Positions 14,897-18,173 of a DNA stretch of 32,569 nucleotides are shown piece by piece (the first letter of the stretch is position 1; each line of letters starts with the position of its first letter). The stretch is from Lachnospiraceae bacterium (GTDB taxonomy: Bacteria; Bacillota; Clostridia; Lachnospirales; Lachnospiraceae), in contig JAIKXA010000026.1 in NCBI GenBank assembly GCA_024684355.1, positions 1-32,569 on the forward strand, read 5' to 3'. The notes beneath the pieces are model-generated. The model made no database searches, was not told where the DNA came from, and saw only the letters and a program-made list of their open reading frames with translations. Position numbers and translations under genes: made by a program.

Positions 14897-15979
14897 ATGA
14901 AGTCATATATTAAGGTCATTGCAGCAGTGCTGTTTTTGGGGCTGGCTGTAATGGCAAACACGGACACCAAGGTTAATGCGGCCGGTGTTATTACCGGTGA
15001 GAGACCTATCGAAGGACTTTCGTATTATCTTGAAAAATGTTATGAGGAAAACACTGATTTCAGTATCGCAGAACTTTTTACCGATGCGGCTGTGATTCCT
15101 GAGAATGTTGCTTTTGCAAATGTTAATGATTATCTGAACATAAGAAAGGCCGGCAATACTTCGGCCGCTATAGTTGGTTACCTTCCTAAAGACGGTATGT
15201 GCGAGGTTCTCGATACCAAAGACGGTTGGGCACATATTAAGTCCGGCAAGATCGAAGGTTATGTTTCTGAGGATTACCTCATTACCGGTGAAAAGGGTAT
15301 TGAAAGAGCTATGTGTCTTTCAACACTGATGGCTACAGTAAATGCCGGTACCGTTAATTTCAGGTCTGAACCTGATTCTTCATCCGATGATAACATCATT
15401 GCTACCGTAAAGTGCGGTATACAGCTTCCTGTTATCGAGGAATGCGTTATTTCCAAGGAAGATGATACTATCTGGGTAAAAGCTTATTGTGATGACCTTG
15501 AAGGTTATATAGCAAAAGAGTTTGTAGATGTTGCATATGATTGGGACAAGGCAGTATCACTTGCGGCAGTACTTAACGGAGAGACTACGGTCGGAGCAAA
15601 TTCATTAAGAAACCAGATCATAATCGAGGCTAAGAAGCATATCGGACTCAAGTATGTCTGGGGCGGAAACAGTCTCGTTACCGGATGTGACTGTTCAGGT
15701 TTCTGTCTGGCAGTATACAGAGCATGCGGTTATGATACCTCACAGCTTCCCAGAGCATCATACGATATAGCTGCTTCATCAAAGGGAAGAACAGTATCGC
15801 TTGCAGAAGCTAAACCCGGTGATATGGTATTCTACGGTTCATCGTCAGGTAAGATCAATCATGTTGCATTGTACATGGGTAACGGCATGATCATACACGA
15901 AAGCGGACGTAAATACGGCTGTATGGTTTCACAGGTTGATTACAGACACATTGTTAAGATTAAGAGTTTCCTTGATTAA
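14897..15979 (+). CDS. Secreted SH3-domain NlpC/P60 cell wall hydrolase
   Basis: This 360-residue exported enzyme probably cleaves peptide bonds in peptidoglycan stems. A signal peptide (basic MKSYIK, hydrophobic core, probable cut near NAA at 27-29) is followed by two bacterial SH3 domains: about 72-130 with YLNIRKAGNTSAAIVGYLP, and about 145-210 with VNFRSEP. The NlpC/P60 domain (about 240-360) has DCSGF with catalytic Cys266, INHVALYMG with His322, and HESGRKYG with His334. It is a single-gene unit between its own consensus promoter and terminator, which suggests high constitutive expression. SH3 domains usually anchor such enzymes to the wall. Exact bond specificity is not visible. Confidence 0.95.
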   Translation: MKSYIKVIAAVLFLGLAVMANTDTKVNAAGVITGERPIEGLSYYLEKCYEENTDFSIAELFTDAAVIPENVAFANVNDYLNIRKAGNTSAAIVGYLPKDGMCEVLDTKDGWAHIKSGKIEGYVSEDYLITGEKGIERAMCLSTLMATVNAGTVNFRSEPDSSSDDNIIATVKCGIQLPVIEECVISKEDDTIWVKAYCDDLEGYIAKEFVDVAYDWDKAVSLAAVLNGETTVGANSLRNQIIIEAKKHIGLKYVWGGNSLVTGCDCSGFCLAVYRACGYDTSQLPRASYDIAASSKGRTVSLAEAKPGDMVFYGSSSGKINHVALYMGNGMIIHESGRKYGCMVSQVDYRHIVKIKSFLD

Positions 15980-15987
15980 TAGTTTGG

Positions 15988-16022
15988 GAAGGCCTGCCTT
16001 TAACGGCGGGTCTTCTTTTTTT
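15988..16022 (+). terminator. Rho-independent terminator after the NlpC/P60 gene
   Basis: GAAGGCCTGCC / GGCGGGTCTTC pairs over 11 positions (two G-U pairs) and is followed by a run of seven T. Confidence 0.92.
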
Positions 16023-16072
16023 GCAAAAATTTATTAATGTTAATAGTTTTTTAAAGTTGACATCAATTTTGT

Positions 16073-16101
16073 TTTACTTGGACACATCACTGAGGTATAC
16101 T
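16073..16101 (+). promoter_or_regulatory. Putative promoter of the small gene at 16172
   Basis: TTTACT and TATACT are separated by 17 bases, giving a start near 16108. A TTGACA at 16057 is too far from any -10 box and was not used. Confidence 0.6.
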
Positions 16102-16171
16102 TTATGTGAACAGTTATATGTAAGATATGATATCATTTTTTAAAACATTAGATTAAGAAAGGGGGAACGTT

Positions 16172-16264
16172 ATGCCGTATGCAAGGAAAGCCGGTGCTGA
16201 TTCGATATGGCAGGAGGATATATCGGAGAGCTCTTTTTTAAGAGCGGTTGAAAGGTTTTTATGA
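16172..16264 (+). CDS. Candidate 30-residue small protein
   Basis: This frame is too short for the ORF track. It encodes MPYARKAGADSIWQEDISES followed by ten more residues. Support comes from its surroundings: a strong purine-rich GAAAGGGGGAA about 6 bases before the ATG, a plausible promoter about 70 bases upstream and a terminator that starts at the stop codon itself. The stretch is flanked by terminators on both sides, so it would be transcribed as its own short unit of about 210 bases. The peptide has no signal sequence or membrane segment; it is mixed-charge and probably helical at the C-terminus. I recognise no family. It could instead be a leader within a small regulatory RNA. Confidence 0.45.
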   Translation: MPYARKAGADSIWQEDISESSFLRAVERFL

Positions 16265-16320
16265 TCCGTCGTACGTGCAGATCAAGGTTGATCCTTGATG
16301 ATGCGGACGACGGATTTTTT
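16264..16320 (+). terminator. Structured terminator after the small gene
   Basis: An outer perfect stem ATCCGTCGT / ACGACGGAT (16264-16272 and 16307-16315) encloses an inner stem ATCAAGG / CCTTGAT (16281-16299) and is followed by TTTTT. The first stem base is the last base of the small gene's TGA. Confidence 0.85.
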
Positions 16321-16343: not shown

Positions 16344-16372
16344 TTGACTTATTTCTTGAAATAAGGTAAAAT
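16344..16372 (+). promoter_or_regulatory. Promoter of the mutS cluster with a dyad in its spacer
   Basis: TTGACT and TAAAAT are separated by 17 bases, with the start expected near 16379. The spacer and the end of the -35 box contain the perfect inverted repeat CTTATTT-CTTG-AAATAAG (16348-16365), which is placed like a repressor operator. Confidence 0.8.
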
Positions 16373-16454: not shown

Positions 16455-18173
16455 ATGGAATATATAATTGGTGCTGCCATCGTAATAATATGCATATTTG
16501 CGGGCGGATATTATCTGCAGAAAAAAGGTGAGAAAAAACTTGAAAAGCGGATAAGAGAAAACTTCGGAACTGTACCTGATATAGAGTACAAACAGGAAAA
16601 GTATGATTCAATAGGTTATTATTTCAGGGAAATGGCTGAAAGGCAGCCGGATGATAATGAGCATTATACAGTTGATGATATCACCTGGAATGACCTTGAT
16701 ATGGATGACGTTTTCCTTACTATGTGCAACACCCAAAGTTCTATCGGTGAGGAATATCTGTATTATCTTTTAAGGACACCGGTATTAAACGAGGAAACAC
16801 TTGCCAAAAGAGAAAAGCTGATAAGATTTTTTGAAAAGGATCCGGAAACAAGACTCGGATTACAGGTGGAGCTTGCTAAAGCAGGTAAGATCTCGGGCGT
16901 GTCGGTATATGAGTATGTTAGCCGCCTTGACAGTCTGAAACCGGAGAATAATTTCAAGCACTTTACCTGTATTTTACTGATGATCGCAGCTATAAGCATG
17001 ATATTTGTGTATCCTGCGATAGGTATAGTCGGTACGCTCGGAGTTTTTTTCTACAATGTAATAACATACTTTAAGCGCAAAAGCGAGATAGAGAACTACT
17101 ATCAGGTAGTTGCATATATTCTTCGTACGCTCGACCTTTCACAGAAGATATGTGCCAGGAAGAATGAAGAACTTAAGCCTTATACCGAGCTGCTTTCTGA
17201 GGAGCTTAAAAGATACAGGAATGTAACAAAAGGTGCCGGTCTTATAGTATCTAAAAAAAGCAACGGAGACATATTGGAGGTTGCCCTTGATTATCTCAGG
17301 ATGGCCACCCATATAGATCTTATAAGATTCAACATTATGCTGGCCAGACTTAAAGATAAAAAGGAAGATTTTGATAAGATATATGAGATCATAGGTATTA
17401 TAGATGCCATGATCGCCGTAACATCCTACAGAGCATTAATGGGTGACTGGTGCGAACCGGAGCTTAAAAAAGCTGAAAAAGATCCGGCATCGGGACTTGT
17501 ACGGCATAATGGGATAGAGACGGAGAATGTTTATCATCCGATGATATCGGAACCGGTAAAGAATAATTTTAAGGAATCGGGCAACGTACTGCTCACCGGT
17601 TCGAATGCTTCCGGTAAATCAACATTCATAAAGACGGTTGCTATCAACGCCATACTGGCTCAGTCAGTACATACCTGCATGGCGGATGATTACAGGGCAT
17701 CATTTTTCAAATGCATGACGTCAATGGCGCTTACCGATAACCTTTCGGGCGGAGAGAGCTATTATATCGTCGAGATCAAATCATTAAAGAGAATATGTGA
17801 CAGCTTAAATGATGATGTACCGCTGCTTATATTTGTGGACGAAGTACTTCGGGGAACAAATACCCTGGAACGTATCGCGGCATCCTCAAGGATACTGTCG
17901 TATATGGGAAACAGGAACTGCATGCTTTTCGCGGCAACACATGATATTGAGCTGACATATATATTGGAAAAAAGCTTCAGACTTTATCATTTTGAGGAAA
18001 GAGTTGAAGATGACGGCGTGTTCTTTGATTATACCTTAAGGGACGGAAGGGCTGTTACCAGAAATGCGATACTGCTTCTAAAGATGATGGGGTTTGACAA
18101 GAGTATTACTGATGCTGCCGAAAAAAGCGCAGATGAATTTGTAACTACCGGAGAATGGAAGCCGGAATCTTAA
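16455..18173 (+). CDS. Membrane-anchored MutS-like ATPase
   Basis: This 572-residue protein ends in a MutS-type ABC ATPase domain: Walker A TGSNASGKST with Gly382-Thr390, the signature region NLSGGESYY, Walker B LLIFVDEVLRGTN with Asp462 and Glu463, and FAATHDIEL. It lacks the mismatch-binding and connector domains of MutS. Instead it has an N-terminal transmembrane helix (about 4-22) and a hydrophobic segment of one or two helices (about 170-210). Residues about 230-350 look like the helical MutS core. Proteins of this architecture are widespread in Clostridia and Bacteroidetes without an assigned role. A promoter precedes it, and mutS starts 21 bases after its stop, so the two should be co-transcribed. 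Confidence 0.88.
   Translation: MEYIIGAAIVIICIFAGGYYLQKKGEKKLEKRIRENFGTVPDIEYKQEKYDSIGYYFREMAERQPDDNEHYTVDDITWNDLDMDDVFLTMCNTQSSIGEEYLYYLLRTPVLNEETLAKREKLIRFFEKDPETRLGLQVELAKAGKISGVSVYEYVSRLDSLKPENNFKHFTCILLMIAAISMIFVYPAIGIVGTLGVFFYNVITYFKRKSEIENYYQVVAYILRTLDLSQKICARKNEELKPYTELLSEELKRYRNVTKGAGLIVSKKSNGDILEVALDYLRMATHIDLIRFNIMLARLKDKKEDFDKIYEIIGIIDAMIAVTSYRALMGDWCEPELKKAEKDPASGLVRHNGIETENVYHPMISEPVKNNFKESGNVLLTGSNASGKSTFIKTVAINAILAQSVHTCMADDYRASFFKCMTSMALTDNLSGGESYYIVEIKSLKRICDSLNDDVPLLIFVDEVLRGTNTLERIAASSRILSYMGNRNCMLFAATHDIELTYILEKSFRLYHFEERVEDDGVFFDYTLRDGRAVTRNAILLLKMMGFDKSITDAAEKSADEFVTTGEWKPES

Follow-up and report, generated by a model that had tools for sequence, protein, structure and literature searches.

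The window analysed here, a stretch of 32,569 nucleotides, corresponds to a contig (C45) of a rumen Lachnospiraceae genome (G000), a draft of 182 contigs that is 66% complete. The named records nearest to this genome are mostly metagenome-assembled genomes of rumen Lachnospiraceae. In the middle of the window, a gene for an NlpC/P60-SH3 protein and a gene for a protein with MutS domain V (MutS-like), the latter followed by mutS, flank a compact unit made up of a promoter, a strong ribosome binding site, a reading frame of 30 codons and a two-layer hairpin terminator (Table 1). The terminator hairpin folds with -28.7 kcal/mol (z = -5.5; none of 200 shuffled sequences was as good), and the fold of the whole 221-nt stretch reaches z = -2.5. 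Coordinates and fold statistics thus agree with the anatomy put forward in the original prediction, and the terminator that had been placed upstream of the unit is indeed present and belongs to the NlpC/P60 gene. The start assigned to the unit, position 16057, is drawn too narrowly, as it leaves out a conserved palindrome that is part of the same leader. Note that the promoter pattern by itself is not above chance (12 sites in the region versus 12.2 expected from shuffled sequences); what lends it weight is solely the conservation of the leader upstream of an operon in related genomes. As to the downstream neighbour, the MutS-domain-V protein (16455-18173) has a hydrophobic N-terminus and is encoded directly before mutS; its best NCBIfam matches, MutS and a KamC-type ATPase, all stay far below the cut-off.

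Table 1. Features of the NlpC/P60-MutS-like intergenic region and its borders in the window.
Feature	Position	Strand	Basis or remark
NlpC/P60 gene, upstream neighbour	14897-15979		NlpC_P60 and SH3 domains found
Terminator of NlpC/P60 gene	15986-16017 (up to 16020)	+	terminator scan
Palindrome TTTATTAATGTTAATAGT	16030-16047	.	decayed copy of operator-like ACTATTAAYRTTAATAGT; 2 mismatches in left arm
Promoter TTTACT-N17-TATACT	16073-16101	+	sequence pattern; aligned leader and profile
Shine-Dalgarno sequence GAAAGGGGG	16157-16165	+	sequence; six bases 5' of ATG
30-codon reading frame, ATG to TGA	16172-16264	+	translation MPYARKAGADSIWQEDISESSFLRAVERFL
ATG CCG TAT (MPY), putative first codons of lost 7TM sensor gene	16172-16180	+	identical in G001: ATGCCGTATATAAGC
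Zone that would hold the deletion junction, exact base not resolvable	16181-16192	+	alignment, profiles
Putative last ~27 codons and stop of stand-alone receiver gene	16181-16264	+	13/22 identical to residues 101-122 of the G022 receiver
Two-layer hairpin terminator, begins inside stop codon	16263-16320	+	folding; outer arms ATCCG..CGGATTTTTTATG
Promoter of MutS-like gene, TTGACT-N17-TAAAAT	16344-16372	+	conserved in G001 and G003

In the related genome G003, the site between the NlpC/P60 and MutS-like genes is occupied by a three-gene operon for a sensor with a seven-transmembrane (7TM) region, a kinase-like protein and a LuxR-type response regulator. The sensor (567 residues) is weakly matched by the histidine-kinase 7TM region (E = 1.5e-4, under the Pfam cut-off), the kinase-like protein (432 residues) has no convincing Pfam match, and the regulator (216 residues) combines a receiver with a LuxR-type part. 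The kinase-like protein carries an HDDLG motif that resembles the H-box of NarX/DesK-type kinases, from which we infer its assignment. G001, the closest relative of the window genome (96% identity for MutS, 86% for the MutS-like protein), shows the same gene order at the site, spread over two contigs with a 659-bp overlap (98.5% identity). In G006, the order gpsA-nlpC-7TM-HK-RR can be followed to the end of the contig, which falls in the response regulator gene, and more divergent versions of the operon reside at the same site in G017 and G007. Only about 170-240 bp lie between the two neighbour genes in G013, G010 and G008. In G010, G008 and G022 the operon is located elsewhere, and a lipoprotein-like and a serpin-like gene come after it. 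Occupancy of the site thus varies among relatives, with the promoter of the MutS-like gene as the 3' border of the variable locus. A tree of the MutS-like proteins places the window genome and G001 as sisters (99/99), with G003 and G006 next (86/87); together with the presence of the operon in these relatives, this makes loss on the branch of the window genome the simplest reading. Between the response regulator and MutS-like genes of G003 there is a GTCATTCTGAGCGAAGCGAAGAATC-type repeat (L030, 5810-5900), and a minus-strand open reading frame at 976-1248 of the window (CHPERMRRI) suggests a similar repeat at that position.

The upstream part of the unit can be assigned to the beginning of this operon. 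The leader in the window aligns with the operon leaders of G003, G001 and G006 over the palindrome AACTATTAAYRTTAATAGTT, both promoter hexamers and ATGCCRTAT. When a profile of these three leaders was run against the window, it found only 16007-16188 (E = 5.7e-9; next match 0.24). On the evidence of the aligned leaders and the profile, the promoter is probably inherited from a lost operon. The palindrome ACTATTAAYRTTAATAGT is intact and located just upstream of the sensor-operon promoter in G001 (C118, 23667-23684), G003 (C10, 12984-13001) and G006 (C2, 26090-26107), and is possibly the operator of the sensor operon; the window genome holds no copy of it at one mismatch or fewer. Outside the operon, two copies occur 39 bp apart in G006 (C90, 8399-8455) and one, with one mismatch, in G022 (C157). 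The palindrome was also considered as a marker of a wider regulon, an idea that was dropped when the neighbours of the G006 copies gave no clear link.

The downstream part has a different source. From residue 4 onwards, the encoded peptide matches the C-terminal end of stand-alone receiver (REC) proteins in G022, G010 and G008 (E between 1.1e-4 and 2.9e-4 per genome). Their genes encode about 125-135 residues and directly follow the LuxR-type regulator gene of the related operon; the full-length receiver belongs to PF00072. A profile of the three receivers, run against all reading frames of the window, retrieved only the 30-codon frame (E = 1.4e-6; next match 1.3). The homology spans only 22-27 residues, and the stop codon has the same position within one residue. 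The LuxR-type response regulator was tried as the source of this part and matched less well (8/25 identities, 23 bits, compared with 13/22 and 34 bits for the receiver). The outer arms of the terminator and the stretch up to the MutS-like promoter match the sequence that follows the response regulator gene in G001. The WQKEIS motif, invariant in the three receivers, reads WQEDIS in the window, with the conserved lysine replaced by glutamate. The peptide, which keeps only the last ~27 residues of a receiver, does not have the receiver hallmarks (phospho-acceptor aspartate, threonine/serine, lysine), and a Pfam search with the 30 residues gave no match. Compared with the three receiver genes, the frame has 5-8 synonymous-only and 9-10 nonsynonymous codons out of 22, against 10 and 1-2 between the receivers. 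These counts would fit relaxed constraint, but they mix the history before and after a deletion. As a separate observation, the divergent stand-alone receiver of G022, G010 and G008 is part of a 7TM-HK-RR-REC operon next to the lipoprotein-like and serpin-like genes (L032, L033 and L034), and a search of about 395 other genomes of the family turned up no close relative of it.

An intact operon thus occupies the site in relatives, the 5' part of the unit corresponds to the leader of that operon and the 3' part to the end of a receiver gene. We consider it highly probable that an operon deletion left the unit behind as its scar, with the beginning of the first gene joined to the end of the last. 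The ancestor would have carried genes for the 7TM sensor, the histidine-kinase-like protein, the LuxR-type response regulator and a stand-alone receiver between the NlpC/P60 and MutS-like genes. One deletion would then have removed about 4 kb, starting at codon 3-6 of the first gene and stopping about 27 codons short of the end of the last, with the reading frame kept across the junction. The operator-like palindrome, promoter, ribosome binding site, start codon, natural stop codon and terminator would have been retained. Being located outside the deleted stretch, all expression signals would have escaped the loss and, with start and stop in place, the remnant looks like a neat mini-gene. As for the receiver gene, its presence in the ancestor is deduced from the remnant. 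The presumed 7TM-HK-RR-REC arrangement was found at this site in no genome, the operons of G001, G003, G017 and G007 lacking a receiver gene here, and only the operon copies at another site (G022, G010 and G008) were seen to end with a receiver gene. The gene may have been present in the ancestor and then lost in G001, G003, G017 and G007, or it may have been gained in the lineage of the window genome.

The same arrangement would be obtained if the operon were intact and had merely been skipped by the assembly. Such an artefact is conceivable for a fragmented and incomplete draft, all the more as the operon copy of G001 is itself split over two contigs in its assembly. However, the beginning of the 7TM gene and the end of the receiver gene, as seen in relatives, have no long identical stretch in common across which an assembler could jump, and neither the kinase nor any close copy of sensor, regulator or receiver was found on another contig of the window genome. 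As about a third of the genome is missing, not finding the operon elsewhere carries little weight; for the sensor, the sole match is a remote 7TM paralogue on contig C30 (25% identity). We regard an assembly artefact as very unlikely. Reads running from ATGCCGTAT into the 7TM gene would mean either an assembly error or a polymorphic deletion.

Two further explanations take the unit as functional. According to the first, it specifies a small regulatory RNA of about 160-220 nt in which the reading frame is incidental. Compactness, an own promoter, the strong terminator and the fold of the whole unit are in line with this, but the stability stems mostly from the terminator and the interior is accounted for as a coding remnant. 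Moreover, no Rfam family reached the threshold, and the interior has no DNA match in 60 relatives. A small RNA is therefore extremely improbable. According to the second explanation, the fusion was co-opted after the deletion as a functional small protein, or as a decoy peptide made of receiver and 7TM pieces. The frame is open and fused in frame, and promoter, ribosome binding site and terminator have been kept. Against this stands the search for the peptide in related genomes, in which neither the 23 other genomes of the genus nor about 395 further genomes of the family yielded a homologue of the 30-codon frame. One match in G013 (C157; 69% over 16 residues) falls within a larger gene of no relation, in a different frame, and was discarded as chance. 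In addition, the fragment covers no more of a receiver than its final strand and helix, the conserved lysine is a glutamate, and an in-frame junction arises by chance one third of the time; selection is not measurable without homologues. Co-option is thus hardly to be expected, and we would give even less credit to the specific notion of a new small gene whose 30-residue peptide is produced under the old sensor-operon promoter and operator, for instance to serve as a decoy in what remains of the signalling network. Of the original prediction, then, the anatomy of a transcription unit holds, while neither a real small protein nor a small RNA of about 210 nt is supported, as the frame has two sources, no stand-alone homologue and no Rfam family above threshold.

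Under the favoured interpretation as a deletion scar, transcription of the unit probably continues, perhaps with translation into the 30-residue fragment. This fragment is probably without function because it would be unable to fold as a receiver and the conserved lysine is gone. The frame is still open and the strong ribosome binding site still present, neither of which is required if the unit is decaying. Pseudogenes can be transcribed in bacteria, as reported for Sodalis (PMC7067036), and an RNA-seq signal alone would therefore not establish a function for the unit.

Searches for small open reading frames that build on promoter, ribosome binding site and terminator can be misled by scars of this kind. 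When a deletion runs from the first gene of an operon into the last, all expression signals remain and the frame stays open in one third of cases, so that the product would score well in small-protein prediction and may even yield a Ribo-seq signal. In addition, the locus is a record of how one two-component operon was lost and relocated at the variable site between the nlpC/P60 and mutS-like genes in rumen Lachnospiraceae.

With the stand-alone, CheY-like receivers (PF00072) of G022, G010 and G008, the encoded peptide shares the C-terminal ~27 residues, the position of the stop and the WQ..ISESSF motif, but it lacks the region of the phosphorylated aspartate and has glutamate in place of the conserved lysine. 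Deletion-fusion pseudogenes and gene remnants are known in bacterial genomes. Like these, the unit would consist of truncated pieces of once-intact genes amid intact expression signals and conserved neighbours. Unlike them, it would join the two ends of a whole operon in frame and in this way mimic a complete small gene.
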